Shown here in pieces: positions 14,844-44,294 of a stretch of 64,000 nt of DNA; the stretch's first letter is position 1; each line of letters begins with the position of its first letter. The translations under genes were made by a program, and so were the position numbers. Below the pieces are notes generated by a model. The model saw only the letters and a program-made list of their open reading frames with translations, was not told the origin of the DNA and did no database searches. Location of the stretch: assembly GCF_000263735.1 (NCBI RefSeq), contig NC_017946.1:1219348-1283347 (forward strand), given 5' to 3'. This DNA comes from Pyrococcus sp. ST04 (GTDB lineage Archaea; Methanobacteriota_B; Thermococci; Thermococcales; Thermococcaceae).

Positions 14844-14885
14844 AGTTTTTAATTGATAAAACTTAGTTTTGGAATGGTGAAGAGC

Positions 14886-25885: not shown

Positions 25886-26155
25886 TTGGGATACACAGTG
25901 TACTATAAGACAAAAATTGATAAATGGAGAGAATTTATAAAACTTATAGAAAGAATAAGCGGGGGGTTAGGAATTGAGATTAAAATTCGCGAAAATGAAG
26001 TTATTCTAAAAGGAGAAGATGTTGAGGAGTTGAGAATAAAGAAAGAAGGGTATAGCTCTGTGAAAACATATGGAAGAGAACCTTACACTTCAATATACCT
26101 TTTGATCCTCTACTCCATATCCTCCTTTGGCTCCGTTGAAGTCTGGGAAGATTGA
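25886..26155 (+). CDS. Hypothetical protein (89 residues)
   Basis: Small soluble protein of unknown function with TTG start and GGGTGA ribosome site. Predicted alpha/beta: N-terminal strand (YTVYYKTKI), a helix (WREFIKLIERISGG), a beta hairpin (IEIKIRENEVILKG), and a C-terminal helix (TSIYLLILYSISSFGSVEVWED). The N-terminal YKTK-I-KWREF pattern resembles small Thermococcales proteins of unknown role. The 3' end overlaps the convergent DUF2101 gene by 46 bases, the longest such overlap in the window. Confidence 0.7.
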   Translation: MGYTVYYKTKIDKWREFIKLIERISGGLGIEIKIRENEVILKGEDVEELRIKKEGYSSVKTYGREPYTSIYLLILYSISSFGSVEVWED

Positions 26156-26832
26156 AGGACTTCGATAATAGCCTTTGGAACAGCTCCCCTGAAAATTCTA
26201 TCTTCTACCACTATTTTAACTAGATCCCCTTCATTAACGACATTCTCACCTTTCTCAATCCAATAATATCCCGGCTTAACATTTGCCGCAATATCATCGT
26301 GCACAAAAACCTTCACTAGATTATTTTTAACTTCTTCTACTATCCCATAAGTGTATTCTCTGCCAAATTTCATTTTGAAATAATTTCTAAATCCTAAAAC
26401 AAGAAGTGTTATTGCGATAATAAACACATAGAGGTAGAGAATGCCAACATTGAGATTTCTCAGAATCTCATATCCCACTAGAGCAATTGCCGAAATAAAA
26501 ACAAGCCCATGATAGAAATATCTGTAAGCTTCAATATTTATTATGTAGTCAGACCCTCTAACCAGAGTATACCTAATGAAAAGAAACTCAAAAATCGAGA
26601 TTGCAATTAGTAGTAGAATAGAAGTGTTGAGAATTATCAAGATAACACCTACAATTAGGTATAAGATAAAAGAAAGTTGCAATTGAAGACTGAAAGTTTC
26701 ATGCAGTGTATATTTTTTGAGTCTTAGTATAGGAGGCTTGTTAGTGGGCTTTGGAAATAAAAATGACTTTAAAATTCTGAAAATTTCCTCGGTCTTCTGC
26801 CCTATTTTATCTAAGAGTTCTATTATAGCCAT
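26110..26832 (-). CDS. DUF2101 family membrane protein
   Basis: 240-residue protein: a cytoplasmic N-terminal helix (LLDKIGQKTEEIFRILK), then four membrane segments at about 50-160, then a soluble beta-rich C-terminal domain (FGREYTYGIVEEV, VFVHDDIAANVKPGYYWIEK, DLVKIVVEDR) that looks like an OB/NfeD-type fold. It is the last gene of the minus-strand surface island, 25 bases after the DUF2341 protein, so it is probably co-expressed with the pilin-like genes. DUF2101 is an archaeal family without known function; my assignment is from memory of the pattern. Confidence 0.75.
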   Translation of the reverse strand: MAIIELLDKIGQKTEEIFRILKSFLFPKPTNKPPILRLKKYTLHETFSLQLQLSFILYLIVGVILIILNTSILLLIAISIFEFLFIRYTLVRGSDYIINIEAYRYFYHGLVFISAIALVGYEILRNLNVGILYLYVFIIAITLLVLGFRNYFKMKFGREYTYGIVEEVKNNLVKVFVHDDIAANVKPGYYWIEKGENVVNEGDLVKIVVEDRIFRGAVPKAIIEVLQSSQTSTEPKEDME

Positions 26833-26856
26833 TTTGCATCACCCATGACTATATGC

Positions 26857-29800
26857 TTATCTCTGTAATAAGTCTCTAGCCCCCGTTACTCCGAACATCG
26901 TAGATGCCGTATTTTCATCTATGAAGAAGTAAACACTATCCCTATCTGGGGAATCTGATATCCCGTAAACTCTATATGTTTGTAAATCACATATTGGATT
27001 ATCAACTAGGAGCTTTCCTGGGAAGTAGTGATCTAAGAAGCAGAAGTCAACACTACTGACATTTTCCTCTGGTGCCCTTTGAAGCACTGTTAAGAACAAG
27101 TTGTTAAGCTTCTCATCAAAGTAATAAGTTAGACTATCCGTGGGTACCATAAAGCTTACGAGTCCTATTGGATAATACATGCCATTCTTAGCTAAACCAA
27201 CTTCATTTTGAATTTGTTCAGACAATCTAACGTATTTTTCATGATTAACCGTGCTACCCTCGAGTCTCTCAAAGAAAGACATTCCCCAGGACACGCCAAA
27301 GTATCCTATCTCCCCCTCCCTGTTTCCAACCCTCTCTTGCTCATTGATACAGAGCAGGAAAGGTTCAAGATCATAAGCCCTCGCAAGGTTCTCAGGTGGC
27401 TTGGTTTCTTCTTGAGAGAGAAGAGGAGTATAGGTTATGTAAGAATCCCCCCATATTACCCACGAGAAGAATCCTCTGTTACCAACGGTATTATTAACCA
27501 CAAGGTAAACTGAAATATCACTAGTAACATCTCCGGAGAGTGTTACTTGGGAAGTCTCAGAAGAAACCCGTGGTTCATGAATGTAGGTTAAGTTTAAGCC
27601 ATTGGCGGCATTGAACTTGACCTCATACCTGTTTGGATTGGATATGAACCACGTCCCTGGGGAATAACTTGCCAGCTTATCCTTCCAGTCCTTGAGGATC
27701 AGAAGTTTCTCAGTAGTCCAGTTGTCGACGAACTGGAAGGTCACGGGAGTTCCAAGTATCGTGATTTTTTGAGATAAGTCGCCGATATTGATGTACTTCC
27801 TTATGAATATCCAATCAAAGATTGCCCCTCTCGATGAAGATCCACTATCTATAAATATATACAAATAGTATAAGGGGAACTTAAATACCCAATCTTTAAC
27901 AGTTTCTTGTCTGTTTTGAGCAGTTAAATCCTTAAATTCAAAAGTTCCAGATAAATAAGAATAGTAACTTAGCTCAACAGAATATACATGATAGCCATAG
28001 TCTCCCCTAGGACTTGAACTAGAGATCAAAACCCACCCCCAAGCATAATATTGAGCCAAGAAATTTTTTGAGATGTCATCAGTAAATAATAATGTTATGT
28101 TTAACTTAAATATCTTATATTGGAGCCCAATTCCTGCATTCCACTTCCCTTCGTATTCAAAACTTGGCCTCATTCTAAATTCAACAACAAATTGATTATT
28201 TATATTGAGAGGTTTTCTTGTTCTCAGGGCATACACTTTATCTCCACCAAAAATAGTTAGGGTGCCATTTCCACTAGGATTCAAAGAAACCACCCCATTA
28301 ATTATCCAATTTTGCTCTAGCTCGGTTCTGCTTTCATTAAAATCATCAAAGAACAGAAACACTGAATTCCCATCTCCCCTCGTGTATTGGAAGGAGTCAG
28401 AGTAAGCTATGTAAACGCTTCCAGGGAGGTCAGTTCTAACCCATATTAATGCTCCCCCATCGCCCCAATACTCTATCCAGAAGGGAACTTCTTTAGTAAG
28501 TGAGCCGTCAGCATACACCTTAATTTTCGCCTTGTTTGTCGTGGAATCATGGGGAATCAAGCTGGCAATTGTGGAGTTCAGGTATATTGGAACCTGAACA
28601 TCTGTAATGGTTTTAGGATAACTTAACTGCACTTCAATAATACTAATATCCGGGATCCCAGTGGCATTCAAACTTATCTCCACCCCTCCATTGAAATCAT
28701 TATTCCATGATGCCGAAAGATTGTACCTAACAAAGAATTCTCTTTGAGCTGTGGTAAAGAGTGGAAATACAGTCCCAGGGGATAAAGTAACATTCTGAGT
28801 ATAGTTCGCTCCAAACACAGACAGCAGACTTCCTCTCTTATATGGAACATCGGAAGATTTAGAATAATAGATATAATAAGTGGTTGTAGTCGGTCTCAGC
28901 CATATTAGAACCTTTTGATCATCCCAGCTCTCTATCCAGTAACTAGCCTCAACACAATCTGGGGTATAAAGTACCAAAGCCCCAGATGCTCCCGAATGAG
29001 GAATTGAGCTGAAAGGATAGTCCGTTGCATTGAATTCAAGAAGAACGAGCTTTCCAATATAGCTTGCAGGAACAGTAAAAGATACACGGTAGGGATAAGT
29101 ATAGTTACACCAAGTGACAGCACTACCAAATACAAGAACACCCATATCGCCTTCTTTAAACACATCGGCCGGATTTACGAGTTCTCCTCCTACCGTTGTG
29201 TTTACAATGATTGGAGCTGTTGTTTCAGAAAAGTCACCTTCCTTTAAGACATATGCCAACGCTCCATCACCCGGATACTTTTCTCCAATATATATTGTAT
29301 CCGACGTTACTGCCGTTGAATATCTGCCAATTACTGGAGAAGTACTACTAACTCCAGACCCCTCAATAACTTTAACAGGTTTTGCAAAGATCTCCGGGTA
29401 GGCATATTTACATGCCCTTACAATCCTTTGATATCTTCCCCCAGTAACCGCTGAGAACATGGGATCTTCAAGACCATTTAAGTCAACTATTGAATAAACG
29501 TAACCTTTCTCTGGAATACTCCCTTTGTAAACTATCTTACCCGCGAGATCTTTAATTACTATACTGTTAATTCTTCCCTTTATTACAATCCTGAACGAGT
29601 CTAAGGGAGCAATCAAAATTGTAGTGTTCCTAATAATGCTATCCCTATTGACCCCAAAAAGTAACCCCTGTTTTCTTAATTGTTTTTCAACTTCACCCAA
29701 CCAAGCCTCAATAGTTTGATTCCCCATAATTCTTTCTACATCGTAACCAGCTAACGGAGGAGAATTTCCTTTTAAAATAAGATCCCTTATTGTATTGTTC

Positions 29801-30063
29801 GCTCCATAAGTTGGAGAAATGAACTTACCAGTCACGGCAACATAGTCAATTGCAGCTATTAGAGCCCTCTTACCAGATATCTCCAGGGCTCTTTTAAATT
29901 CTAATTGAAGCGATGATATAACTTGATAAACTCTTTCAGAATAAGCCCTCTCACTTTGACTAAGAATTACCTGGGATGATATTTCCTCATATGTTGCTAA
30001 TAGTAATAAAATTGGAATCAACATCACGAGAATTGAAGCATTGATTATAAAACCCCTTCTCAT
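26857..30063 (-). CDS. Giant pilin-like surface protein with two DUF2341-like modules
   Basis: 1068-residue extracellular protein. The N-terminus MRRGFIINASILVMLIPILL is a short basic leader plus one hydrophobic helix with no later membrane segment, like the three preceding genes. Two DUF2341-like modules at about 320-420 and 480-580 share FWIEYWGD/YWIESWDD, ALIWVR/VLIWLR and YIAYS/YIYYS blocks; the second is followed by a jelly-roll-like region (FFDDFNES, NGTLTIFGGDKVYAL, FVVEFRMRPS). Many NxT/NxS sites suggest glycosylation. The ATG overlaps the upstream stop as TAATG, with GGAGGGAG before it; the longer frame from 30078 is less likely. Probably a filament tip or adhesive component; ligand unknown. 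Confidence 0.85.
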   Translation of the reverse strand: MRRGFIINASILVMLIPILLLLATYEEISSQVILSQSERAYSERVYQVISSLQLEFKRALEISGKRALIAAIDYVAVTGKFISPTYGANNTIRDLILKGNSPPLAGYDVERIMGNQTIEAWLGEVEKQLRKQGLLFGVNRDSIIRNTTILIAPLDSFRIVIKGRINSIVIKDLAGKIVYKGSIPEKGYVYSIVDLNGLEDPMFSAVTGGRYQRIVRACKYAYPEIFAKPVKVIEGSGVSSTSPVIGRYSTAVTSDTIYIGEKYPGDGALAYVLKEGDFSETTAPIIVNTTVGGELVNPADVFKEGDMGVLVFGSAVTWCNYTYPYRVSFTVPASYIGKLVLLEFNATDYPFSSIPHSGASGALVLYTPDCVEASYWIESWDDQKVLIWLRPTTTTYYIYYSKSSDVPYKRGSLLSVFGANYTQNVTLSPGTVFPLFTTAQREFFVRYNLSASWNNDFNGGVEISLNATGIPDISIIEVQLSYPKTITDVQVPIYLNSTIASLIPHDSTTNKAKIKVYADGSLTKEVPFWIEYWGDGGALIWVRTDLPGSVYIAYSDSFQYTRGDGNSVFLFFDDFNESRTELEQNWIINGVVSLNPSGNGTLTIFGGDKVYALRTRKPLNINNQFVVEFRMRPSFEYEGKWNAGIGLQYKIFKLNITLLFTDDISKNFLAQYYAWGWVLISSSSPRGDYGYHVYSVELSYYSYLSGTFEFKDLTAQNRQETVKDWVFKFPLYYLYIFIDSGSSSRGAIFDWIFIRKYINIGDLSQKITILGTPVTFQFVDNWTTEKLLILKDWKDKLASYSPGTWFISNPNRYEVKFNAANGLNLTYIHEPRVSSETSQVTLSGDVTSDISVYLVVNNTVGNRGFFSWVIWGDSYITYTPLLSQEETKPPENLARAYDLEPFLLCINEQERVGNREGEIGYFGVSWGMSFFERLEGSTVNHEKYVRLSEQIQNEVGLAKNGMYYPIGLVSFMVPTDSLTYYFDEKLNNLFLTVLQRAPEENVSSVDFCFLDHYFPGKLLVDNPICDLQTYRVYGISDSPDRDSVYFFIDENTASTMFGVTGARDLLQR

Positions 30064-32225
30064 TATCTCTCCCTCCAAATTCTTAGAGTTACCATTATTG
30101 GGGTGAATAATCCAGGAATACTACCCATACTCGCCGTTTGAATACTAACTCCCTTAGGCAAGTCTATGTCGATAGGATTAGATCTAGACCCATCATAAGG
30201 TACAGTTCTCCAGTCGTTAGGATTCAAATCGTCTAAATAATTGAGCTTGTTAAATAATCTCAGGACAGCATCATCAACTGCATACTTTGTTGGATCAAGT
30301 TCATCAACTGAGATCTGCTTATACGGCGGATCACCAACTATTATGCTCCTCCTTTCAACGCTACTTCCATCAAAGTAATAATAAGTTAAGTTGTATCCCT
30401 TATATGTTGGATATCCTTGGAGGAGATAGGGAAAGATATCACCATACCCGGCGTATCCCTGAATAAAATATCTTATTATCCCTCTTGTTTCACCATCTCT
30501 TACATATGATGACCCATCAGTCATTCTTATTTCAAAGGTATTCTGCTGCCCTGGAACCATCATCCAGTCGTATAATCTTGTGTAAGCGACCCTTATTGCA
30601 TACCTTCCCAATGGACCAGAATAGAACTCTCTGTTGTTCTCATACAAGTGTTGAACTGTAGAATAATCAGCAAATGAATATCCAACCCACCAATCGGCAT
30701 ACCATGGCTCAGCTGTAGGTGGTAGGGAATATCTAACCTGAAGTCCTGCTCCATTGTAGCTGACTCTTGGATCTCCATAGGGAAAATATATTGCCAATGG
30801 AATACTATACATTGTCAGTGCAGTTTTTGGTATGTAATCAATTTTGACATAGGAATCGGGGTACCCATATAGCACTCTCTGTCCTACCCCCCCATAAGTA
30901 GAGCTAGTTGCCGTACAATTAAAACCATAACATCTTGCCCCTCCATATTTCCACCGACCATTTGCTGGATTAAACTCCGCATCAAATCCTACAACAAAGT
31001 CAAAAACCATTTTGCTTATATTACTAAGAAATTCTGCATAGCAATCCCTACCGCCACATAATTTACTGTTTACAGCATTCCTGATTTCGCTGTCTGTGAA
31101 TTCCACAATTCCATCCACAGAAGGATGTTTCCATAAGAGTAGAGTTAACTTACCTCCAAGTCCGTAATATAAATTTACTCTATGAACACCATTCACTTTA
31201 AATTTCATTGTTATTCCCGTTATGTTGCCAGGAACAAACATCTCTAACAAGTAGAAGAACCCAGTATATTTCGAAGTTACGCTATAAATTTTCACGAGTC
31301 CTGGATCCTCAACTGCAAGAGAATTCGATTTGTATTTAATATATAGTGTTGTACCACTGGCAGAACCTATACCATCTTGCCTATATGGGTAGGTAGGAAG
31401 ATAGTATATTATAGTGACGTTATTTGAACCTGACTTTAGACAATTTGTCAAATCCTCGTTTATTGTTCTAGCAGTTGGACCAAATGTACATTCATAACGA
31501 GAGCCTACATTTATTTTTAGAAGTTGGTATTCCCTATATCTCTTTACAAATTTTCCATCTGCTTTAATTATTTCCGCATCTTCTGGGAGATTAATTTCTC
31601 TGGTAATAGTAAGAATATTGTAATCATCATATAAATTATATGGACCAGCGAGGACTCTAAACCATCCATACAATTCCTCTCTTATAACAGTAGCCTTAGT
31701 TAAGTAAGCCCTCGCTATGTATCCCCTAGGGGTTCTATTATATGAGTAACCACTCAGAATCATGCTTGAAGTTGAAATATCAAACCTTTCCTTAATCCCC
31801 TGAACTTTTACGAAAGATTGGTTATCAACTATGAACTCATATCCATAGCCAGGCAATAACCTTGACAAAACATATCCTATTATTGTCCTCGCTCTGGCCT
31901 TATAGTCAATCGAAGGATAAAGTGGCTGAACAGCCCAATACGTCGCAAGAATGTCTAGGGGGGACATGTCAGGAGTCACAAGGGTCATGTTCAATGTTCC
32001 ATTCCGAATCCACTCCTGGATTACATCTCCAGGAACCAGCTGATTAAGGGGAACAGTTCTTAGGATAGTAAGGACGTCTTCCGCACTCTTCATGCTTTGC
32101 TCCCTCATGTATGTCTGATACAGGGCTTGTGTGTTAATTTCCATAGTTACAACTCCCACAATAACAGTAGATACCAAGATGAACGCTAACAATGCGTCAA
32201 ATGTAAATATAAACCCCCTTCTCAT
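30063..32225 (-). CDS. Large pilin-like surface protein (720 residues)
   Basis: The N-terminus MRRGFIFTFDALLAFILVST matches archaeal type IV pilin leaders: basic residues, Gly at the cleavage position, an acidic residue (Asp) at +5 or so, and a hydrophobic helix. The ectodomain is Tyr- and Gly-rich, with several cysteines that could form disulfides (CTFGPTARTINEDLTNC, LCGGRDCYAEF, ARCYGFNCTA) and many potential N-glycosylation sites. No catalytic motif is recognised. It overlaps its neighbours by 4 bases upstream and 1 base downstream, so it belongs to one tightly coupled operon. Confidence 0.82.
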   Translation of the reverse strand: MRRGFIFTFDALLAFILVSTVIVGVVTMEINTQALYQTYMREQSMKSAEDVLTILRTVPLNQLVPGDVIQEWIRNGTLNMTLVTPDMSPLDILATYWAVQPLYPSIDYKARARTIIGYVLSRLLPGYGYEFIVDNQSFVKVQGIKERFDISTSSMILSGYSYNRTPRGYIARAYLTKATVIREELYGWFRVLAGPYNLYDDYNILTITREINLPEDAEIIKADGKFVKRYREYQLLKINVGSRYECTFGPTARTINEDLTNCLKSGSNNVTIIYYLPTYPYRQDGIGSASGTTLYIKYKSNSLAVEDPGLVKIYSVTSKYTGFFYLLEMFVPGNITGITMKFKVNGVHRVNLYYGLGGKLTLLLWKHPSVDGIVEFTDSEIRNAVNSKLCGGRDCYAEFLSNISKMVFDFVVGFDAEFNPANGRWKYGGARCYGFNCTATSSTYGGVGQRVLYGYPDSYVKIDYIPKTALTMYSIPLAIYFPYGDPRVSYNGAGLQVRYSLPPTAEPWYADWWVGYSFADYSTVQHLYENNREFYSGPLGRYAIRVAYTRLYDWMMVPGQQNTFEIRMTDGSSYVRDGETRGIIRYFIQGYAGYGDIFPYLLQGYPTYKGYNLTYYYFDGSSVERRSIIVGDPPYKQISVDELDPTKYAVDDAVLRLFNKLNYLDDLNPNDWRTVPYDGSRSNPIDIDLPKGVSIQTASMGSIPGLFTPIMVTLRIWRER

Positions 32226-33934
32226 CTCTCATCCCACACCCAAAGCTTTACCAAGCCCAGCTCATACCTTTTATCAAGTAATAGACCAATATTGTACTCA
32301 TCTATTAAATATACCGGACCATTGAAATTTGTTTCGTAAATCCACATCTCAACGGGTTTTCCTCTTTCACTTGAGACTTCTGAAAATACATCGATCCAGG
32401 GAATTATTATGGAAGTTTCGTTTCCTACATAAGTTTTTTGAAGGATAACTCTCCCAGTAGCATTTACTTTCCAAAGATACGCTTGGACATTTGGAGAAAC
32501 TGCACTCTTAGTTACTCCCAGTAATTTAGTCTTTTCCCCATCTAAGATTATAAATAGGGCGTATCCAGTTTCATTTGGAACAGTTATCTCAAACCTTGCA
32601 TAAGCAGGAGGAGTATATTTAAGAACACCTGAAATAAGCCTCGTATAGTTGGAGGAAACCTCAATAGTCATATTGTATTTTTTAATATCGACAGTTACAG
32701 CTCTGCTGGCATATTCAACCCAACTAGCATTCTTTGGAATTTGAATTAATACTGTTGTCAAATTATCTTTGTAATAAACAGCTCTGGCCCAAGCCTGAGA
32801 TCTCTCTAAGACTTGGGGGTACGTATAATCCAAGGAGGCAGAACTAACTGAAAGAGGCAGTTCTCCCAAAATGAAACATGGTGGGGGAGACGGAGGAGTC
32901 CAATCATCTGGAAGTGGATAACCATATATGTTTAGTGTAAAGCTCGAGGTATAGGAGATAACCTGAGGCTCATTTACTCTCTCCCATCCACTCCCTGTCC
33001 ATTCATACCATTCTCCAGTTCTGTTTGAAGCATACCAAATGTTTCCAACTTTGATGTAAAGGTTTCCTGGTAAATAGTTTTGAATACCAATATTTACTGT
33101 TGCAACACCTGAGACGTCAATAAGGTAAGGATTTATCGTGTCTCCGAATATTACCAAGTCCCTGGCGATATCTATTTGCCTACTGCCTTGTCCCCTAATT
33201 ATTAAAGCCCTATCTATGTAGACACTACCACCTACTCTTACAGTAACTGACCCATTAATTGTCCAGTCTCCATCTATTGCAAGGTAAGGATAGGGTCCTC
33301 CAAGTGTGGGGGGATAATGACCAACCGTTATATCTAATGAGCCATCTGTATTTACGTCTCCAAGGATACAAAGAGGAGAATCGGATGTTATACTAGCGGA
33401 TCCCCTTATTATTAGAGGAGAACACTGAATTATAGTTGGATTACCAAATTTTAAGGACTGGGTACCAGTTACTGTACAGCTTCCAGAATATACATCAAAA
33501 TTCCCGGAGATTCCGCCTGCATCTGGGTTCCATGTGAAGTTCACCGTGAAGTTCCATATACCAAGATAAAATTCAAGGCAGAAGGGCTTTCCAAGGCTCA
33601 AGTTTCTGAGGAAGTCAAGAACTTTGGAATCATCTTTTTTGATTAGATCAAAGAAAACTAGAGCCTTTTCGTAAGATACAAATGGAGAATCCTCCTCTTT
33701 CAGTCCAAAGCTCTTAGCATTGGTAATATTATCATTCCAATTTGGAGGCTCTCCAGGAGTTTTTAACAAGACATCTAACATGTTATCTGGAATGTTAACT
33801 CTCTCATACCACTCAACAATAGATGATATAGCCTCTCTTATTGAATCAGATGTGGTGGATATTGTTCCGAGGAGTATTATTGTCATGGTTAAAGCAACAA
33901 AGGCATCTAGTGAGAATATCTGGCCTTTTTTCAT
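32222..33934 (-). CDS. Pilin-like surface protein with beta-solenoid-like region (570 residues)
   Basis: The leader MKKGQIFSLDAFVALTMTII has the pilin pattern (KKG/Q, Asp near +5, hydrophobic helix). Residues about 130-280 are short repeating beta strands (IIRGSASI, CILGDVNTDGSLDI, LAIDGDWTINGSVTV, VGGSVYIDRALIIRG, IARDLVIFGD) like a polymer-forming or right-handed beta-helix cap; a Pro-rich linker (TPPSPPPC) and further beta domains follow. The ATG at 33934 overlaps the upstream stop by ATGA and has a GGAGTGTGA ribosome site; the longer start at 33949 is unlikely. Part of the island of six pilin-like genes. Confidence 0.82.
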   Translation of the reverse strand: MKKGQIFSLDAFVALTMTIILLGTISTTSDSIREAISSIVEWYERVNIPDNMLDVLLKTPGEPPNWNDNITNAKSFGLKEEDSPFVSYEKALVFFDLIKKDDSKVLDFLRNLSLGKPFCLEFYLGIWNFTVNFTWNPDAGGISGNFDVYSGSCTVTGTQSLKFGNPTIIQCSPLIIRGSASITSDSPLCILGDVNTDGSLDITVGHYPPTLGGPYPYLAIDGDWTINGSVTVRVGGSVYIDRALIIRGQGSRQIDIARDLVIFGDTINPYLIDVSGVATVNIGIQNYLPGNLYIKVGNIWYASNRTGEWYEWTGSGWERVNEPQVISYTSSFTLNIYGYPLPDDWTPPSPPPCFILGELPLSVSSASLDYTYPQVLERSQAWARAVYYKDNLTTVLIQIPKNASWVEYASRAVTVDIKKYNMTIEVSSNYTRLISGVLKYTPPAYARFEITVPNETGYALFIILDGEKTKLLGVTKSAVSPNVQAYLWKVNATGRVILQKTYVGNETSIIIPWIDVFSEVSSERGKPVEMWIYETNFNGPVYLIDEYNIGLLLDKRYELGLVKLWVWDER

Positions 33935-34431
33935 CTTATCACACTCCATCCATTATTAACCGTTATATTCATTACAATTCTTTTCTCTCCAATATATATA
34001 CCATCACCCCTTAAGCTCGTTATCCGGAGATTTTTCAGGGAATTTTTCAAGAATTCACCGAGTAGCGTCGCTATTCTAGAATTCTCTTCAGCAGTCAAGT
34101 TATTCAAATTATGGGAGAACCCCAGGTAGATAACTATTTCGCTTGAGTTTTCCTTAGTAACTTTCAGGCCAATAAAAGAAAATCTAACCCCATAGTACCC
34201 AGTATAACTTGTTATAATCTCATTCAATGGAGCGAGTTCGCTCTTGTTTACCACAACGCCATTGGTTATATAGGAAGAAGCATATCCAGCAAAATCTTTG
34301 AGTTCAACCAGAACTGAGATATCACCTGAGCTTTTTAAATAAACGATTGATACACTAATAGCGGATAAGACTATTATCCCCACTAATAACAGGCCTTCAA
34401 CTGAAGTTTGGGCTCTTTGAGACTTTGACAT
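33931..34431 (-). CDS. Type IV pilin-like protein (166 residues)
   Basis: N-terminus SKSQRAQTSVEGLLLVGIIV is a textbook archaeal class III signal: basic leader, cleavage near A/Q, Glu at +5 (QTSVEG), then a 20-residue hydrophobic helix for filament packing. The globular part (about 40-166) has NNLTAEEN, several N-glycosylation motifs and an amphipathic helix (EFLKNSLKNLRI). Its start lies inside the end of the preceding pilin gene (35-base overlap), with GAGGGAGG before the ATG. Likely cleaved by an EppA/PibD-like peptidase encoded elsewhere. Confidence 0.85.
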   Translation of the reverse strand: MSKSQRAQTSVEGLLLVGIIVLSAISVSIVYLKSSGDISVLVELKDFAGYASSYITNGVVVNKSELAPLNEIITSYTGYYGVRFSFIGLKVTKENSSEIVIYLGFSHNLNNLTAEENSRIATLLGEFLKNSLKNLRITSLRGDGIYIGEKRIVMNITVNNGWSVIR

Positions 34432-34852
34432 CTAGTCCTCCCTCACTAGCGTTATAGAATACAATTATCCAAAATTCAGGAGATTCATTCGTCAGTATCA
34501 CAGAACTAGTTGAAATGACATTGACGGGAAGTTTTTGTTGCGTATAGTACATTGCTCCACCAATGGTGGAATATATCTGAACTAAATCACTTGTTCCATT
34601 TATCGTTACCTTAATAGAGTCACTGGGAGATACAGAGAAGGGCAAATTAAGTCTAATTGAGTATCCTGGACCCATACTATAAGCCTTCGTAACGCTATCC
34701 CTGACTGTTATAGATAGAACCTTTATTTTTGTTGCCATTGAGAAAGTGTTTGCCATTTCATTTTCCTGTAATCCAATACTAATTATCCCAACAGAAAGCA
34801 CACTTATTAGTGCTATAGCAAAAAGAAAATCAATGCTTAACTGACTCCTCAC
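34397..34852 (-). CDS. Type IV pilin-like protein (151 residues)
   Basis: The N-terminus MRSQLSIDFLFAIALISVLS has the basic leader, Gln, Asp at +5 and hydrophobic helix of a pilin. I prefer the GTG at 34852, preceded by AGGTGGT, because it gives a leader matching its neighbours; a GTG at 34861 adds three residues. The C-terminal domain is small and beta-rich (SIRLNLPFSVSPSDSIKVTI, EFWIIVFYNASEGGLDVKV). It overlaps the next gene by 35 bases and follows the previous stop directly. Confidence 0.8.
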   Translation of the reverse strand: MRSQLSIDFLFAIALISVLSVGIISIGLQENEMANTFSMATKIKVLSITVRDSVTKAYSMGPGYSIRLNLPFSVSPSDSIKVTINGTSDLVQIYSTIGGAMYYTQQKLPVNVISTSSVILTNESPEFWIIVFYNASEGGLDVKVSKSPNFS

Positions 34853-34853
34853 T

Positions 34854-35471
34854 CTAACCACCTGGATTAATGTTTATCACAATTTCTTGAGACGTTGAAT
34901 TGTACTGCCAAATATTTTCAATCTCGGGATTCCATTCAACTACTATTTTCAACATTTTGGGGAGGTTCGCCGGTGATAATTTAACACAAGCAAGATTTAC
35001 AAAGGTTCCTCCAAAGTTCACATTCAAAATTTGGTCAGGAAATACCGTTGTGTTTGTAAGGAAGTCCCTCCTATATAGGGACATTGCAAAGAAAGCATTC
35101 TTATTAACACCTTCGAAGTTGACGCTTATAGGCTCAGTTCCATTTAAAAGCATTACATAAGTTCCGTTTCTGTAGGATATGCATATAATGGGATTATTTA
35201 TGAAAAAAGCTTTCTCTATGTAGTTAGGATCTCTAAGGTATGTTAACCTATAATACGTGGTAACCTTCGCCCCCGGACCTTGAGCATAGACCTGGCTTAT
35301 TGCATTCGATATAGAGCTTGCAAGGCCTTTCGCCTCAACACCAATTTGAGCAGCGAGAACATCTTGAGAAGGAGAACTAGAAAAACTCGTTAACTTCAAA
35401 GAGTACACTAACATAAGGACAAATATCATAAATAGGAACATGAACTCTAGGGAAATTTGACCCTTCCGCAT
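34854..35471 (-). CDS. Type IV pilin-like protein (205 residues)
   Basis: First of the consecutive pilin-like genes. MRKGQISLEFMFLFMIFVLM has KG/Q cleavage, Glu at +5 (QISLEF) and the hydrophobic helix. The mature domain contains two cysteines (IICISYR, NLACVKL) that could pair, and ends in a Gly-rich tail. GGGGGGAT lies before the ATG, and a TATA-like AT-rich stretch in the 89-base gap (35472-35560) could give the pilin block its own promoter separate from cetZ. Could be the major or a minor pilin; the sequence does not tell. Confidence 0.85.
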   Translation of the reverse strand: MRKGQISLEFMFLFMIFVLMLVYSLKLTSFSSSPSQDVLAAQIGVEAKGLASSISNAISQVYAQGPGAKVTTYYRLTYLRDPNYIEKAFFINNPIICISYRNGTYVMLLNGTEPISVNFEGVNKNAFFAMSLYRRDFLTNTTVFPDQILNVNFGGTFVNLACVKLSPANLPKMLKIVVEWNPEIENIWQYNSTSQEIVININPGG

Positions 35472-35560
35472 AATCCCCCCTGGTTAGAGATTTAACAAAA
35501 CCATTATTTAATCATTACCCACTAAATTTTTCATAATGACCCTCAAATATGTCTAAACAG

Positions 35561-36154
35561 TTACTCAACCCTAGCCCTTCCTCTGTGGTCAAACAGAACT
35601 CCTTTGTAATCTGAATTGTATAAATTGAACTTATATTTTTCCTTATCTAGATCAAATCTTTCCAAAAGGGCTTTCAGCTCATACACAAAGAACTGAACAA
35701 GTTCATAATACTTCATATCCACTTCACTCTTCTGGCGGTCGAAGATGTAAATCGCTAGGGGAAGAACTCCAAGTGCAATGACGAATGTTGGGTATCCCGT
35801 AATGAAGGAGAGGATTATCATAAGAAGTGCAAAACCCGAAAGGGCTATTATTGAATAATATATTATCCTCATGCTTCTTTTTGCCTCCTTAACTTTTTCC
35901 TCCCAAATATCCATGAGAAATGGGTTGTAAAAATCGAAGACCGTGTGCCTTTTTCCTTTTCTTATCCTCTCCCTAATTAGAAGATCCCAATCATCCTTAT
36001 AATAAACTTCAATGCCTCTCAGCTTTGCTCTCTCGGCATCTATTGCAGAAATTATTCTTATGATATCTTCAGCACTCTCGTGGGCAATGTGGGAGTAAAC
36101 CTTCTTTTCATCCAGTTCAAGAGCGACTTCAACAGAATCTTTAACCTTAATCAT
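35561..36154 (-). CDS. Membrane protein coupled to the CetZ-like gene
   Basis: 197-residue protein with a soluble N-terminal part (about 1-90, helical, acidic and basic) and two adjacent membrane helices near 95-140 (IIYYSIIALSGFALLMIILSF, FVIALGVLPLAIYIF) followed by a helical cytoplasmic tail (YYELVQFFVYELKALLERFD). The ATG at 36154 overlaps the CetZ stop by eight bases and has GGTGAGG upstream; the longer frame from 36196 is not supported. The coupling suggests it may tether or position the tubulin-like protein at the membrane. No family recognised. Confidence 0.78.
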   Translation of the reverse strand: MIKVKDSVEVALELDEKKVYSHIAHESAEDIIRIISAIDAERAKLRGIEVYYKDDWDLLIRERIRKGKRHTVFDFYNPFLMDIWEEKVKEAKRSMRIIYYSIIALSGFALLMIILSFITGYPTFVIALGVLPLAIYIFDRQKSEVDMKYYELVQFFVYELKALLERFDLDKEKYKFNLYNSDYKGVLFDHRGRARVE

Positions 36155-37241
36155 CAACCTCACCAGGGTATATATCGTCAAAGTCTGGAAGACCACTTAG
36201 TAATTCTTTTTTCTTTATCTCACTTTCCTCTTTAGCTTTCATAAAATCTCTGGCATATTTCTTTGCGGTCAAGATTATCTCTTCTATACTCTTACTTTCG
36301 TATATCCCACTTAACAGTGTAACAACCTCAACTTCCCTCTCCCTAGGATCTGGGTAGAATCCCCTAAATATCTGCTTTCCCTTTATCCTTTCCGTGAGCT
36401 CATTTAATGCCTCAAATATGTCTTTAGCCTTTAAGGCTTCAGGAGGCCCATGGATAGCTACAAGACCGTAAAGTGCCGACTCTATGTTAACATCAAGGTA
36501 GAGTCCCTCTGTCTCGAACGATCTTATTATCAGCCTTGACAGGCTTTTGATCTTTGAAGCATCTGCTTTTGCATATCCAATTGTAGCAAAACTGCCCATT
36601 GCCCTAAGAACAAACTTCAAATCACTTGCATCCAACGTTTGTTCTCCAGGAACGTCGATCAAAGCCAACAAAGAGGCTATTCTTTCAACAATTGCATAGT
36701 TTATCTTTTCATAGGCCTGGCTTATATCTTCACCACTCTCCTTGAGCTTATTGTTGTCTATTGCTATTATTGAGTCAACTATCTTTGAGAGCTTGTCTAT
36801 AGTTATTGCGGCATTTATAGTTGGCCTTATTCCCTCCTCCTTTAGTGGCAGTGCTCCTACTGCAACAACAAGGGAATCAGGGTACTCCTCTTTGAGTGCT
36901 TCTGCCAAGACTGGAGTGCCGCCGGCTCCAGTCCCACCTCCAAACCCGAAAGTCAAGAAAAATATATCAACGTCCTCGTACCCAACTAGGGAGTTTATTT
37001 TTTTCATTACCATCGGAAGATCTCTTTTCATTGCCTCTCTCCCGAGAACGGGATTTGCATTTACCCCTTTACCCCCAACTATGCTCTCGCCTATCAGGAT
37101 CCTCCTTTCTGGAGGGATATGCTTCAGATATTCAAGATCTCCTCTTGAAGTGTTTATGGCCAATGCCTCAAAATCAACTAAAGAAAATATGTCTGCTATC
37201 TTTGTCCCGCACTGGCCTATTCCTATTATTATTGCCCTCAC
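36147..37241 (-). CDS. cetZ: CetZ-like tubulin/FtsZ superfamily GTPase
   Basis: 364-residue cytoskeletal GTPase. The glycine-rich tubulin signature FGFGGGTGAGGTP is at about 98-110; GIGQCG at 6-11 is the T1 loop and AINTSRGDL the T2/T3 region. It lacks the C-terminal FtsZ tail that binds FtsA/SepF partners and ends in an acidic segment, as CetZ-type (FtsZ3) proteins do; archaeal CetZ controls cell shape and motility rather than division. The GTG at 37241 is used because GGGGGTGA lies about eight bases before it and the protein then begins MRAIIIGIGQ; the open frame extends to 37271. It sits in an operon with surface and pilin-like genes, which suggests a role in placing surface structures. 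Confidence 0.88.
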   Translation of the reverse strand: MRAIIIGIGQCGTKIADIFSLVDFEALAINTSRGDLEYLKHIPPERRILIGESIVGGKGVNANPVLGREAMKRDLPMVMKKINSLVGYEDVDIFFLTFGFGGGTGAGGTPVLAEALKEEYPDSLVVAVGALPLKEEGIRPTINAAITIDKLSKIVDSIIAIDNNKLKESGEDISQAYEKINYAIVERIASLLALIDVPGEQTLDASDLKFVLRAMGSFATIGYAKADASKIKSLSRLIIRSFETEGLYLDVNIESALYGLVAIHGPPEALKAKDIFEALNELTERIKGKQIFRGFYPDPREREVEVVTLLSGIYESKSIEEIILTAKKYARDFMKAKEESEIKKKELLSGLPDFDDIYPGEVDD

Positions 37242-37267
37242 TCCAGGTTCACCCCCGTAAAAATAAA

Positions 37268-39331
37268 TCAAATGAAGATCACAGATATCTCATTTTCCTG
37301 AACCTCGTCATCTCTGTTTTCATCAACCCAAGATGCCACGATAGCTTTTCCATGCAGGTACTTGAGTATTGGTGTGTTGAAGAGGAGGTTTGCTATGTCT
37401 TCAGTATTTCTACCTTTGTATAGAACGAAAAGCAACTCTCCATCCCTGTTTCTGCCAGGAACTATAAGGAGAACCCCATCGCCATATAATGGAATACCAT
37501 TTACAGCAAGTACTCCCTTCATAATTCCAATTTTGACATCAGCGTTGTATTTAGACACATCGACCCTTCCCAAGGGATAGATTAAGATATAATTGCCATA
37601 CTCTGGGATCTTAATCAGAACTGTAGTCCTTATGCTAGTATTGGTGTGGAATATTTCCTTTAACCCATCTGAAACGACACCAGCTATGCTTGGACTCGTT
37701 GTTAGTATCTTAACTTTCTTTCCTTTTATGCTTGTTAGTACCGTGTATATATTCACTTTTGGAACTTCAGGGAAGAGTGTGTAGTACATAATAAAGGTTG
37801 CGTCAAGCAGTGGGCTCTCGTAAAAGTCTTCCACCTTTGGAATTTCCCATGTTGGCTTAAAGCCGAGTTTTGACAATAAGACGTAAAGATAAAGTTTCTC
37901 CCACTCTTGCGAGGGTGGGTTATTTAGGATATATTCTATTGTATCGTGGAGATCATCCAGACGAGCCACGTTTAAGAGAGAACTAAAGATTATGGTAGTC
38001 TCTGGGTACTCTGGGGCAAAATACCAGTAAGTTATTGGGGTTCTAAAGACGTAACCCCATCCCCCATCATTTTTCATAGATAATAACCACTCAACGTTTT
38101 CATGTATAATTGGATCATACTTAGATACACCCAATCTCCATAATGCTTCAACTGCAAGAGCCACTATTAATGGTTGTCTCCCAAAACTATCTCCCCAATA
38201 TGTACTAAGAATTAATTCTTTAGCATGTTGTTTTTCTTCTAGTGAGAGAGCATTATACTCTAAAAGGGATAGAAGAGCAAATAGATATTCTTCTCTCATA
38301 TATCTATCCCTGAGAATAAGTTGTTCTTCTCTAAAGAGAACCTTTCTCATAAATTCGAGTCCTCTCTGAGCGGCATCGCTACTGGGGTTGCATATCTTTA
38401 CAGCCTTTAAAACGAAGTATGTTGTTGAAACACTTGAAGGAGATCCTCTATATATTCCCCATCCACCATCTTCATTTTGAAGACTCTGGAGAATACTACA
38501 GGCCTTGCCTAAGACATCTTCTTGAGGGCTCACTAAGTTCTCTGAAACTAAAGAAAATGCCATCGTTGCATATAAGGGGTAGTATTTATCAGGCCAATCC
38601 TCTTTCTCCTCCTCGACCTTTGTTAATAACTTTGCCGCTTCAAAATTTAAACCTTTAAGAGAAAGAATAGCATATGCCCCTAGGGCGGTGTTTAGGGTTG
38701 CTAATTTTTCAAGGGCATCCGAGGGTGTTTCACCTGTGACTTTTCTAGTTACAATTATCCAGAGATAGAGATGATAAGGATCGGAAGGCATTTTATCCCT
38801 TATTATTGAATATGCTTTCTCAACTAGATCAAGCTTAGTTTCTAAGAATACCAGAGCTGCAGAAGCTAATAGGGTACTTCTATAATCGGGCTTCATACCT
38901 TTTAAATATCCCCATCCGTCTCCAGTAAAAGACTCCGTAAGAAAACTAATTCCTCTATTTATAGCCTCTACTATTTTCCTCTCCTTATTTTTATCAAAAG
39001 AAAATGCTTTTTTAGCTTCTGCAAGAGCTATTAGTGCATATCCGGTATCTGGAACTGAACTCACACTCCCATAAAAGTATCCCCACCCACCATCTGGATT
39101 TTGCCAAGATAGTAGCTCCTCGACTCTCTTCCAGGCTTCATCTACAGACAAATTCTCGCTCTTATTAAGGGCTAGGCTAAGTGCAAATACTATCAAGCTA
39201 AGATTTTCTGTTTTATTATCATCGGGAAAGTCCTTCGAAATATCCACGGAATAGTCAAGTATTTCTAATGCTGACATCGGAAGCAATAAAATATTAATGA
39301 ATATCAGGGCTACTGCAATCTTCATCCTCAT
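37268..39331 (-). CDS. Secreted protein with prenyltransferase/squalene-cyclase (alpha-alpha toroid) repeats
   Basis: 687 residues with a signal peptide (MRMKIAVALIFINILLLPMS). QW-type repeats are plain: QNPDGGWGYFYG at about 77-88, GDGWGYLKG, QNEDGGWGIYRGSPSSVSTT and KNDGGWGYVFRTP, each followed by a helix pair (GYALIALAEA, YFVLKAVKIC). The catalytic DxDD of true cyclases is not evident, and extracellular location argues against an enzyme on squalene; related toroids in complement-like proteins and gliding proteins bind partners. A beta-rich C-terminal domain (about 560-687) follows. It is co-directional with cetZ (its stop lies 26 bases upstream of the cetZ GTG). Confidence 0.82.
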   Translation of the reverse strand: MRMKIAVALIFINILLLPMSALEILDYSVDISKDFPDDNKTENLSLIVFALSLALNKSENLSVDEAWKRVEELLSWQNPDGGWGYFYGSVSSVPDTGYALIALAEAKKAFSFDKNKERKIVEAINRGISFLTESFTGDGWGYLKGMKPDYRSTLLASAALVFLETKLDLVEKAYSIIRDKMPSDPYHLYLWIIVTRKVTGETPSDALEKLATLNTALGAYAILSLKGLNFEAAKLLTKVEEEKEDWPDKYYPLYATMAFSLVSENLVSPQEDVLGKACSILQSLQNEDGGWGIYRGSPSSVSTTYFVLKAVKICNPSSDAAQRGLEFMRKVLFREEQLILRDRYMREEYLFALLSLLEYNALSLEEKQHAKELILSTYWGDSFGRQPLIVALAVEALWRLGVSKYDPIIHENVEWLLSMKNDGGWGYVFRTPITYWYFAPEYPETTIIFSSLLNVARLDDLHDTIEYILNNPPSQEWEKLYLYVLLSKLGFKPTWEIPKVEDFYESPLLDATFIMYYTLFPEVPKVNIYTVLTSIKGKKVKILTTSPSIAGVVSDGLKEIFHTNTSIRTTVLIKIPEYGNYILIYPLGRVDVSKYNADVKIGIMKGVLAVNGIPLYGDGVLLIVPGRNRDGELLFVLYKGRNTEDIANLLFNTPILKYLHGKAIVASWVDENRDDEVQENEISVIFI

Positions 39332-39392
39332 GTAATTTCCCTCCCACAGAATTTAGGCTGGGTGTTAAATAAAATTTATGATAGGGAAGAAA

Positions 39393-41483
39393 CTACTCCG
39401 TTAATACTTTAATTTCAGAAATCTCCTCTTCCTCTTTCTTTGGAAGACCTCCTGGTCTTGGCTGTTTTCTCCTAGCTTTGAGTTTTTCTAGTTCATTTTT
39501 ATATTTGACCATGCTATATCCAGTCCATCCGGATACTATTACAAGAGCTATTACTATGAACGTCAAGACATCTACCAAACTGACTCCTTTTGGACTTTCT
39601 TTGTTACTTTCTTTCAAGTATTCCTTAGTTATGTTTGCTATTTCCTCTGCTAAATACGTTGCATTCTCCTGGGAAGCCAAAACTTCCTTTATGAACTCTG
39701 GTAATTCCTCCGGGGATGGATATTTCTCGATAACTTTAGTATTTTCTTTAACTATTATCCTCGGTGGAACACTGTTTATCAGGACAGTATTAGGATACTC
39801 TATCGTGTGCCATCCTCCTAAGGGATCTTGGAACTTTAGAACGACTTTTAGGGGGTAGACTCCCTGTTTAAGAACAAGATATTGGGAGTCCACAACCTTC
39901 TCTTCACCAGCCTTTAGTGTCCCTATCTCAATTACATCTTTTCCATCTAAGAAATCTCCAAGAGATACAAGGAGCGAAGCATTCTTTATGAACTCGTATT
40001 CATTGTTATTTCCGTAAGCCTTTATTGTAAACCTCAATTTTACTGTCGAGTTTTCTTTTGCAATCACGTAGTTGCTCCAGGAGGAATTTGAAAATCCTTC
40101 AACATTTAGGCTTATTCTGGGAACTGCATAGACATTTATTTTCTCTATAACATTTGATTTCACCGTTATCTTTCTTCCAGCTTCGTCATAGTACTCAACG
40201 ATAACGGGACCCAACGTATATGTCCCAACTGCCTTTGGCTTTAAGGTGTACACTAAAACTGGCATCTCGGAAAATGCCTCTAAGGTATTTAATGTCCATG
40301 CTCCGATTCCACTCCTGAGCTCGAAGTTATTTGGAACGGGGGCAACTACTCTAACTTGAAATGCATTTCCTCTTCCTTCATTCTTTACTTTAATGAAAAC
40401 TATAAGCTCGTCACCACCAAGCAAGAGATCCTTTGTGCTAACCTTGAGTTCGGCTGTGACTTTTGCAGATCTTATTATTGGCTTTGCTATGGCCCCCAAA
40501 GGAGCGTACACCTTTACATAAGTCCTGTTGTAAGTCATGTCAACGGAATTTGGAGGAATTTCAATCCTGAGAGGTGCTTTCGTGCAAAGATAAATGTTTC
40601 CTTCTCTAACGGAGAATTCTTCTAAGGTTTTTCCTTTGCTGTCTAGTACGGCAAACCTAGAGTAATATCCAACGCTTTTTAGCAAAATATTGTATTTTGT
40701 ATTATTGTACTCTATAGTTAAGTTCTCCCCCACGTAAAGTATATCGCTATACACAAGCTGAGTTGCTTCAGTAGGTGTTAACTGCTCTTCTTCCTCGGTT
40801 TCTTCTGGGGGCTTAATTACTTGAGGATTTGAAAATACAAATTTTGGAACGTATATATCAACTACTGCCTCATCATCTTTTTTTGCACTAACGAGGGTTA
40901 TCACTAAGAAAGGAGACTGAACAAAGTCGGAATTCAATCTATATGGTACTTTTATTGGGGAGTCTTTTTCTAGGAGTTTATCGACAGTCTCTCCATCCGG
41001 ATATGTTATCCTAAACTTTGCTTGAGTATCGGAGGGAACGTCAAGAAGTTTTATGGAGAACTTTGGAAAGAGTTTTGGAAGAGTGTAGGAGTCACCTTCA
41101 TTTAAGACCATGTTATCTTCGAGTAGTTTCATAGGAGTTGAGAGCTTCACATAAACTACGCCTTTATCCTTCCATATCCCGCTAATTTTAATTGCCAGAA
41201 GGATATTATCTTGAGATGGATAGTATCCAGTTTCGTCTTCTGCTAATATGAACGTTTTCATTGGATTATTATTCTCATATACCCTTATCTTTACCTTTGT
41301 CCAGTCAACGTCAACGTCTTCAAATTTCACAAGGTATTTCTCTGAGAACTTTATCCCCCAACCTAATTTTAACCCAATCGTTGTCAGACTTGAATACATT
41401 GTTTCTTCTCCCTTCACTTTTGGTATAAACAACATTGAAGAGCCAATTAGGATAAGTAGAATTAGTACACCCGCTTTTCTCAT
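39393..41483 (-). CDS. Membrane-anchored CARDB-type surface protein
   Basis: 696 residues: signal peptide (MRKAGVLILLILIGSSMLFI), several beta-sandwich domains including CARDB/BatD-like ones (VFIKVKNEGRGNAFQVRVVA, YTLKPKAVGTYTLGPVIVEY), a membrane helix near 640-660 (VLTFIVIALVIVSGWTGYSM) and a charged cytoplasmic tail of about 35 residues (KKEEEEISEIKV). BatD-like domains are typical of surface or oxygen-tolerance operons, but no MoxR or VWA partner is here. Likely first gene of the surface island, 61 bases before the toroid protein, with its own AT-rich promoter at 41484-41552. Confidence 0.8.
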   Translation of the reverse strand: MRKAGVLILLILIGSSMLFIPKVKGEETMYSSLTTIGLKLGWGIKFSEKYLVKFEDVDVDWTKVKIRVYENNNPMKTFILAEDETGYYPSQDNILLAIKISGIWKDKGVVYVKLSTPMKLLEDNMVLNEGDSYTLPKLFPKFSIKLLDVPSDTQAKFRITYPDGETVDKLLEKDSPIKVPYRLNSDFVQSPFLVITLVSAKKDDEAVVDIYVPKFVFSNPQVIKPPEETEEEEQLTPTEATQLVYSDILYVGENLTIEYNNTKYNILLKSVGYYSRFAVLDSKGKTLEEFSVREGNIYLCTKAPLRIEIPPNSVDMTYNRTYVKVYAPLGAIAKPIIRSAKVTAELKVSTKDLLLGGDELIVFIKVKNEGRGNAFQVRVVAPVPNNFELRSGIGAWTLNTLEAFSEMPVLVYTLKPKAVGTYTLGPVIVEYYDEAGRKITVKSNVIEKINVYAVPRISLNVEGFSNSSWSNYVIAKENSTVKLRFTIKAYGNNNEYEFIKNASLLVSLGDFLDGKDVIEIGTLKAGEEKVVDSQYLVLKQGVYPLKVVLKFQDPLGGWHTIEYPNTVLINSVPPRIIVKENTKVIEKYPSPEELPEFIKEVLASQENATYLAEEIANITKEYLKESNKESPKGVSLVDVLTFIVIALVIVSGWTGYSMVKYKNELEKLKARRKQPRPGGLPKKEEEEISEIKVLTE

Positions 41484-41552
41484 CCTCTCCCAACCCCCAT
41501 TATTTGATGATTCTTAAGTTTAGAATTTTTGATAAGTATAAAGCTCTTTTGG

Positions 41553-44294
41553 TTAATCCCAAAACTTCCTTGTCCTTATATATTTCTTCTCAAGCTCCAT
41601 TAATTCGGAAATAAGTTGTGATCTTGGAATGCTTGCAAGAACCCTACTCGCTGTTTTAACACCAACACCATAAGTTGCCAATGCCAAAACTGCATTTTCT
41701 CCATAAGTTCTATACAAGTCTGAAGCCTTTAGTCCTCTAAGGTAAACCCTTTCCTCCTCTGCACTAAGTCTCATTTTATTCTTAACTTTTTTAAGAACCT
41801 TTAAGAATTCCTCAGCATCTTTGGGATGAAGAGGAGCTAACATGAGTGATCCACACTTTGGACATGTTACATTCCCTCTCCCAATCACTCTCCCAACTTT
41901 TGTTCTCCAATGCCATCCACAATTGGTACAAACCATGACAATATCTTTTTCAAGCAACTTCTGATAGAACATTTCTCTTAGATCCTCTTCTGTGAACGGG
42001 CCAGAAATCAAAAATTCCCCAAGGAAGTTCATGTATGGGAGAGCTAAAATGCTTGGCTTTTCATTAATTGTAGTTTTTATCCTTAAGAATCCCTCTCTTA
42101 TGCTTCTGATAATTTGTATACTCGTTGGAATGTCAACTTTTTCTTGAAATATCTCATTTAGAGTTTCTTTTTCAATAATAGTCCCTTCAAACAACTTTTC
42201 TATGCTTTTAACCTTTGCTCGCTTCGAGAGTGCCCCAATCCTTTTAGCAACATTGATCATCTTCCATCTATATATTGAGCTAAACTTAGCCCCTTTTATC
42301 ACAAGCTCAGGAATTCCTTCTGGGGGAATAACGGAGATAAAATCTGCGATTTCTTGTGGATTTAATTTGAAAGGTGCTTTTATAACTATTGCATGAGCAT
42401 ACGCTTTCATTGAAAATATGTTCCCATATTTTGAGGAAAGAAGAACCCAGAGAATCCTCGCTAGAGTTTCATTAACTTTATTCCCAAAGCTTGCATGAAT
42501 TATTGCTATCTTTCCCACCACCTCAATAACAATATCCCTATCTGTGGAGAGCAAACTTCCCTTGAGCTCTTCTACAACCCTTCTAATATCTTCATCTTCA
42601 AACTCAACTCCCTCTATTAGTTTGACTCCCCTAGAAATATCATATAAGAGTTCCCTTTTGAGAACGCCCGTATCTCTAGCAACCTCATAGGGGACGGGTA
42701 TTAGTTCCCCCTCCCAGCTAGGTATGGCACCTTCGATATTCCCAGACTCTCTGACCTTAACTATCTCCCCGTCCCTATCGATTTCTAGCACAATCCAACT
42801 CCGCCCATGCATTATAAATTCAACACCTTCTTCAAGCTCTATCACGAAGTTTTCGTCTAGTCGACCAATAATTTTTCCAGATACAACGTCTAATACCTTG
42901 TAGCTGATCTCGTCCGGTATCATTGATAGGTTATCAAAATAGTATTTATACGATCTCCTACCAAGCTTTAGTTTTCCTTCCACGATTTTTATTATCCCTG
43001 CCTCCTCAAGAAGTCTCAGAACTTCTAGGTAATCCTCCCAAGAGAGATTCTTGTAAGGATATGTTGATTTTGCAATTCTATATGGTTCACTAATGCTAAT
43101 TTCCTTATACTCTATTAATAATCCAACCACAAAGTGGGCCAAAACATCCCTAGCATTCATATAAGGTCTTACGGGTTCGAGTTTTCCTTCAAGTGCCCTC
43201 TTCGCAATGACAAGGCTTTCAAGGTAGTCTTCCGGACTTGTTGTAATTATATAAGCCTCGCTAGTCTCACTAAGCCTATGTTTACTTCTTCCTGCCCTCT
43301 GAATCAACCTATTGACTTGTCTTGGGCTCATATATTGAACAACAACGTCAACGTCCCCAATGTCAATGCCTAACTCCATTGAAGATGTACAGACCAAAGC
43401 CTTTACTTCTCCATTCTTAAGTTTCTTCTCCGCTTCTATTCTAGCATCCCTTGAAAGACTACCGTGATGAACTTCAACAGGTTTTCCCCATGCTTTAAGT
43501 CTATGTGCCAAAACTTCAGCGAACTGCCTAGTGTTTACAAAAATTAGTGCCCTTCTGTAGTTCTCAACTATATTCCACAACGTTCTTAACCTAGCAGCGA
43601 CATCTGAAGGAATCTTTAATCTCTCAGCGAGCTTTTCATCTTCCTCAGATATTCTCGGATATAGGACTTTAAACTTGTACTTCTTCTTTAGCCTTGGCCT
43701 TACAATAACATCAGCCTTTAACCATTCTCTAATTTCTTCCTCATTACCCACGGTAGCCGATAATCCAATCCTTATGAAATCAGAAATTAGCCTGAGCCTT
43801 TCTAGGTTTAGAATCAGCTGAACTCCCCTTTTATTGTCAACGAGTTCCGCAATTTCATCTATTATCACAAATTTCACGTTTCTAAGGAATGGTCGGAGAG
43901 ATTTCATTGTCAATATTATTGGCAAAGTTTCTGGCGTTACTATCAAAATATGGGGAGGATTCCTTACTTGCCTTGCCCTTTTTGACTGTGGTGTATCTCC
44001 ATGCCTAACATCGACCATAACCCCTGTCCTTTTCCCCCACCACATAAGTCTCTCTAAGAGATCCCTATTAAGAGCCTTGAGAGGAGCTATATAAAGGGCA
44101 GATATCGGAGGTAAGTTCTCCTCAAGAATAGAATTTATTACAGGGAGAATTGCGGCCTCAGTTTTACCACTACCTGTCGGGGCTATTATTAAGGTACTTT
44201 TTTTCTCTCCATAGATCCTTCTAAACGCTTCAATTTGAATTTGATTCAGTCTGCCAAATTTTTCTTTGATGGCCTTTCTGATTAAGATGTGCAT
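41553..44294 (-). CDS. lhr: ATP-dependent helicase Lhr (archaeal Lhr core type)
   Basis: 913-residue superfamily 2 DNA/RNA helicase. Motif [10 protein letters not shown] at 38-46, motif [14 protein letters not shown], motif [11 protein letters not shown], motif IV-VI including [17 protein letters not shown] and QRAGRSKHR; the Lhr winged-helix and DUF-type middle domain follow. A four-cysteine zinc finger lies near the C-terminus (CTNCGWHW, then CPKCGS). Lhr proteins act in DNA repair or RNA metabolism. It is divergent from hjc with only 52 bases between the starts, consistent with joint regulation of repair functions. Confidence 0.93.

Follow-up and report, generated by a model that had tools for sequence, protein, structure and literature searches.

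The CetZ-pilin locus of Thermococcales: a putative clade 1 type IV pilus tip module and a candidate membrane anchor for CetZ

Gene content of the locus

The window analysed here is a stretch of 64,000 nucleotides from Pyrococcus sp. ST04 (contig NC_017946.1, positions 1,219,348 to 1,283,347). Eleven ORFs lie on its minus strand between positions 26110 and 41483, with short gaps or overlaps between neighbours; the original prediction of eleven co-directional genes was thus borne out, coordinates and strand included. Most of the labels that it gave to the parts also held: CetZ (PF00091, PF21011), DUF2101 and the six pilin-like N-termini were recovered, and the QW toroid label is backed by squalene-cyclase/prenyltransferase matches in Pfam. 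The exception is the label CARDB, which corresponds to a sub-threshold match (E 0.012). The gene concerned (39393-41483) encodes a secreted, C-terminally anchored surface protein; it had been counted as part of the system, but it lies outside the conserved unit, being confined to Pyrococcus loci with no homologue in 16 non-Pyrococcus loci. Comparison of this protein with the surface protein of the archaellum operon revealed no meaningful similarity. A TATA-like element, GCTTTATACTTATC, is present upstream of the gene (window 41460-41560), suggesting from sequence that it has its own promoter apart from lhr.

The next gene (37268-39331) encodes a secreted, squalene-cyclase-like QW-repeat alpha/alpha toroid protein (PF13243, 3.7e-10), and its stop codon is located just ahead of the CetZ start. 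The QW proteins share 37% mean identity; the catalytic DxDD motif of squalene-hopene cyclases is absent in all 20 of them, and no CGEQ motif was found. Judged by these motifs, QW is a toroid fold and not a squalene-hopene cyclase enzyme. In many QW proteins (window 37268-37390 and orthologues), the C-terminus carries an EF-hand/dockerin-like DxNxDG motif, and it is different in a subset of loci (L047, L048, L053, L054 and L060).

CetZ, a tubulin-family GTPase (36147-37241), matches PF00091 (4.1e-30) and PF21011 (CetZ_C, 9.5e-18), both above the Pfam cut-off. It carries the GTPase signature GGGTGAGG and a TLDASD motif, both of its T7-loop acids are invariant across 21 genomes, and its conserved C-terminal tail reads GLPDFDDIYP. 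The closest PDB chains are 4b46, 4b45 and 3zid, which we take to be CetZ structures. The start codon is most likely the GTG at 37241, behind the ribosome-binding site GGGGGTGA, and not position 37271. Open frames of ~1100 aa around CetZ, which could be read as a QW-CetZ fusion, were rejected as a read-through artefact, an in-frame TGA being located a few codons before CetZ. In four loci (L048, L052, L056 and L060), CetZ is extended by ~20-25 residues past the GLPDFDD tail, ending in a basic LRR-type stretch, and this extension is possibly a second binding motif.

The gene that follows (35561-36154) encodes a two-helix membrane protein, here termed 2TM, which on the basis of its conserved head and its adjacency to cetZ is a candidate membrane anchor of CetZ. 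It most likely starts with the ATG at 36154, giving an 8-nt overlap with the cetZ stop, and is separated from pil1 by 89 nt in which a promoter may lie. The minor pilins Pil1 (34854-35471), Pil2 (34397-34861), Pil3 (33931-34431) and the large Pil4 (32222-33949), Pil5 (30063-32225) and Pil6 (26857-30078) come next; the N-terminus of Pil4 is likely at 33934 (MKKGQIFSLD) and that of Pil6 at 30063. The final gene of the block (26110-26832) encodes a DUF2101 membrane protein (PF09874, 4.1e-67; 52% mean identity).

Conservation of the block and of the CetZ-2TM pair

A gene order not kept outside close relatives had been named beforehand as grounds for refuting the original prediction, and the locus passes this test. 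The order QW-CetZ-2TM-Pil1-6-DUF2101 recurs in all of 20 loci, which represent six genera, with the single exception of one genome (G019) without the QW gene; a few of these genes were assigned by position, including two pil3 genes whose divergence put them beyond the blastp cut-off, and overlapping ORFs hid one or two short ORFs in one listing that were visible in another. The upstream neighbours are lhr and the CARDB-like gene in Pyrococcus and a wyosine radical-SAM gene in the other genera. As Pyrococcus has other flanks than the remaining genera and the order is constant, the block has been held together while its neighbourhood changed. The genetic tie between CetZ and surface filaments that the original prediction had drawn is therefore upheld, the linkage to pilins being preserved across the six genera. 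In genome G019 (L049:5951-8210 and 13938-15377; n = 1, QW being judged at this locus), Pil6 also lacks its DUF2341 insert. This double loss is suggestive only; it possibly indicates a functional link between QW and the adhesin insert, or joint decay.

Within the block, conservation is very uneven. The genes other than cetZ and 2TM show 33-52% mean identity, and CetZ shows 85.7% mean pairwise identity (21 genomes). CetZ orthologues were found in 89/94 genomes, with 81-93% identity to the window protein, and the five genomes without cetZ are all fragmented drafts and are the same five that lack 2TM. Outside Pyrococcus, identity to the copy of the window genome is 80-82% for FtsZ1 and 81-88% for CetZ, so that CetZ appears to be under roughly the same constraint as FtsZ1, the division protein. 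Such strong conservation could by itself be explained by self-assembly. Searches for CetZ_C found it in none of the sister orders examined and, of 14 control genomes, in that of Haloferax volcanii only. Methanocaldococcus jannaschii has no CetZ despite possessing clade 1 pilus genes (DUF515, DUF2341), which indicates that CetZ is an add-on to such pili. Two plasmid-borne haloarchaeal CetZs have no annotated pilin within their 9-kb flanks.

The conservation of 2TM is concentrated in one part of the protein. The cytoplasmic head (residues about 4-87) is nearly invariant, with a mean pairwise identity of 81.5%, compared with 30% for the transmembrane hairpin and 52% for the C-terminal part (21 genomes). 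A head conserved to this degree on a fast-evolving membrane hairpin suggests that it has a fixed cytoplasmic partner. CetZ would be the obvious candidate, because cetZ overlaps the 2TM gene and evolves equally slowly; moreover, the two genes are adjacent and on the same strand in 89/89 genomes. We consider it reasonably probable that CetZ and 2TM work as a pair. A scan of 84,980 genomes/species yielded 24 confirmed 2TM loci, all in Thermococci; the scan relies on short conserved patterns, recovered fewer loci than the order contains and would miss remote relatives. An AF2 model of 2TM (pLDDT 74.7, 21 sequences) gave no match in a PDB fold search (best E 0.99).

Minor pilins and unlinked pilus machinery

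All six pilin-like N-termini proved genuine and are conserved among the orthologues. The class III signal peptide of Pil1 is above the Pfam cut-off (PF04021, 8.6e-8), and that of Pil3 has an E value of 0.013. The prepilin sites of Pil1-4 have the form [GA]/Q in nearly all orthologues, the slash marking the predicted cleavage, and those of Pil5 and Pil6 the form G/F (G/FxFTxD in Pil5). The AF2 model of Pil1 (pLDDT 88.9) consists of an N-terminal helix and a beta domain, as in pilins; a PDB fold search with this model returned no match (best E 0.38).

The acidic residue after the predicted cleavage site divides the pilins into two kinds. It occurs at +5 in 61/61 orthologues of Pil1-3 (21/21, 21/21 and 19/19, respectively) and at +6 in 42/42 orthologues of Pil4 and Pil5 (21/21 each), that is, at +5 or +6 in 103/103 sequences. 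No acid was found at +1 to +12 in any of the 21 Pil6 orthologues. In bacteria, a likely mark of the first subunit is one minor pilin without Glu5 that is larger and whose gene closes the cluster at its 3' end (PMC5207764). All three features are present in Pil6, which is the largest of the six, is the last in the cluster and lacks the position-5 acid while Pil1-5 are acidic; thus, it agrees with what has been published as the hallmark of a subunit that initiates the tip. About 300 residues at its N-terminus and ~200 at its C-terminus form constant ends, and the insert of variable size between them carries DUF2341 (1.7e-11), the sole such domain in the genome. The minor pseudopilins GspH-I-J-K of the T2SS and the minor-pilin priming complex of type IV pili likewise form a cluster in which the last member is the largest, has no acid at position 5 and contains a bulky internal insert. 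However, the acid lies at +6 in two of the five acidic pilins here. Pil6, for which no GspK-type match was found in Pfam or NCBIfam, may be called GspK-like by analogy only.

The original prediction had also noted that no assembly ATPase, platform protein or peptidase is visible here. This is correct for the locus itself, but all of them are encoded elsewhere in the same genome: the partner search that had been proposed recovered an ATPase, two platform proteins, DUF515, EppA and short pilins, so that genes for the pilus lie at four or more separate places in the genome. A motor locus at C1:1112776-1120081 (L004) encodes an ATPase, two TadC proteins, a DUF515 protein and a 320-aa protein. The pilus ATPase (PF00437; L004:7801-10641, minus strand) is 946 aa long including an intein (PF14890, 2.6e-24) inserted at the GHDG/CMGT motif, and the two TadC platform proteins (PF00482) are 356 and 313 aa long. 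No gene resembling MinD was evident at the motor locus examined. Among the 14 control genomes, DUF515 was found in M. jannaschii only. From the two TadC genes, DUF515 and the assignment of Makarova et al. (PMC4858521), we infer that the pilus ATPase belongs to clade 1.

A search for prepilin peptidases with PF01478 found none in the genome, because EppA is divergent; it is detected by PF06819 (C1:643433-644629, 398 aa, 4.5e-34), and its sole NCBIfam match is EppA (1.3e-10), under the cut-off of that model. The eppA gene directly follows the gene of a 57-aa class III pilin (L085:6245-7630, equal to C1:643244-644629), well away from both the motor locus and the tip locus. Two further short class III pilins are encoded at about C1:700.3-700.8 kb, giving three pilins of ~60 aa in total. 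A third PF00437 match (C1:962530) was rejected as a pilus motor, as it is a PIN-ATPase-KH protein. In 41 genomes, the ATPase/platform locus lies 33-967 kb from cetZ, with several genome lengths rounded. The split between motor and tip is therefore the rule in the order and, since at least 33 kb always separate the motor from cetZ, their partnership is proposed from family membership.

Pilus assignment and the role of CetZ

The locus had been described as being of unknown function, which is too strong, because its type has been recognised previously. Makarova et al. (2016; PMC4858521) assigned it to clade 1 type IV pili, named an FtsZ-family GTPase and a squalene cyclase in most Thermococci loci and proposed DUF2341 proteins as tip adhesins. 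According to Brown and Duggin (2023; PMC9856176), all 15 Thermococcales cetZ genes analysed sit among pilins in a conserved organisation, and a scaffold role for pili is suggested. The CetZ-pilin association in Thermococcales is thus already known; the invariant 2TM head, the tip signature and the unlinked motor genes, none of which appears to be picked out in that paper, are described here. Clade 1 pili such as the Epd/EppA system of Methanococcus maripaludis share with the Thermococcales short class III major pilins off the main locus, several minor pilins, a DUF2341 adhesin, EppA, a VirB11-like ATPase with two TadC proteins and DUF515. In contrast to clade 1 pili elsewhere, those of Thermococcales add CetZ, 2TM and QW, and their motor and EppA are encoded at separate loci.

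The locus very probably belongs to a pilus. Its fuller reading, in which it encodes the minor-pilin/tip module of a clade 1 type IV pilus and CetZ-2TM serves as a membrane-tethered scaffold or positioner, seems to us evenly balanced, and the scaffold or positioning role of CetZ, taken separately, stands at this level or slightly lower. According to this model, Pil6 would be the first subunit and tip adhesin, and Pil1-5 would form the priming or upper filament under it. The small stand-alone class III pilins would provide the shaft subunits, EppA at C1:643433-644629 would process the prepilins, and the ATPase and platform proteins at C1:1112776-1120081 would drive assembly, both as presumed partners. 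On the cytoplasmic face, a CetZ polymer tethered through a putative contact with the invariant 2TM head would scaffold or position the pilus base, and the QW toroid would act on the outer side of the membrane, its target perhaps being the tip adhesin. More tentatively, 2TM can be proposed as a dedicated membrane anchor and adaptor between a tubulin-family cytoskeleton and the type IV pilus, with the pilus base being built on, or moved by, the CetZ polymer that the head holds. We know of no experimental description of a cytoskeleton-linked pilus.

Alternatively, CetZ and 2TM might form a general cytoskeleton for shape or polarity that shares an operon with the pilins through one envelope regulon and has no action on the pilus. 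Conservation at the level of FtsZ1, far above that of the pilins, is expected of a core cytoskeletal part, and CetZ1 of H. volcanii acts in cell shape and motility (PMC11621097). However, the linkage to pilins holds in six genera despite differing surroundings, and in Halobacteria a cetZ2 subgroup also adjoins a pilus locus, a different one (pilB2/C2, subclade 4F; PMC9856176). In this haloarchaeal arrangement, too, a CetZ-family GTPase neighbours the genes of a type IV pilus, but the pilus belongs to another clade and the locus includes its own ATPase and platform genes (PMC9856176). We regard a general shape or polarity function without action on the pilus as unlikely, albeit as the most serious competitor. 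Chance or passive neighbourhood without any functional link, for which only the general compactness of archaeal genomes speaks, is extremely improbable in view of the 89/89 adjacency of cetZ and 2TM and the gene order kept in six genera.

Other structures could also be served. The proteins of the polar cap under the archaella of Pyrococcus furiosus and Thermococcus kodakarensis are unidentified according to PMC5517150, and CetZ1 affects archaellum positioning in H. volcanii (PMC11621097), so that CetZ-2TM could organise the cell pole as this cap and place archaella besides or instead of pili. The archaellum operon is, however, a separate locus without CetZ, the cetZ operon contains pilins and not archaellins, and the cap is reported for other motile Euryarchaeota too (PMC5517150), whereas 2TM was found in Thermococci only; this possibility is improbable. 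A little more improbable still is that the six pilins form a separate short pseudopilus or secretion device powered by another motor such as FlaI and not by the clade 1 ATPase. The operon has no linked motor gene, and three very large pilins would be unusual for a plain pilus, but the genome has only two pilus-type ATPases, one of them inside the archaellum operon, and methanogens too pair the clade 1 ATPase with minor pilins and DUF2341 proteins (PMC4858521).

Returning to the assignment to a clade 1 pilus, its output can be suggested from the homologous pilus of M. maripaludis, in which transformation-defective mutants carry insertions in epd genes, in eppA and in the gene of a DUF2341 protein (PMC10133366). 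As the same work counts T. kodakarensis and P. furiosus among naturally competent organisms, adhesion and/or DNA uptake would be the likeliest output. In Thermococcales, there is essentially a single CetZ, its gene is tied to one operon, and it has a single candidate partner in the membrane. Together with the competence of T. kodakarensis and P. furiosus, this would make the role of a tubulin relative in building or positioning a pilus testable by deletion of a single gene.
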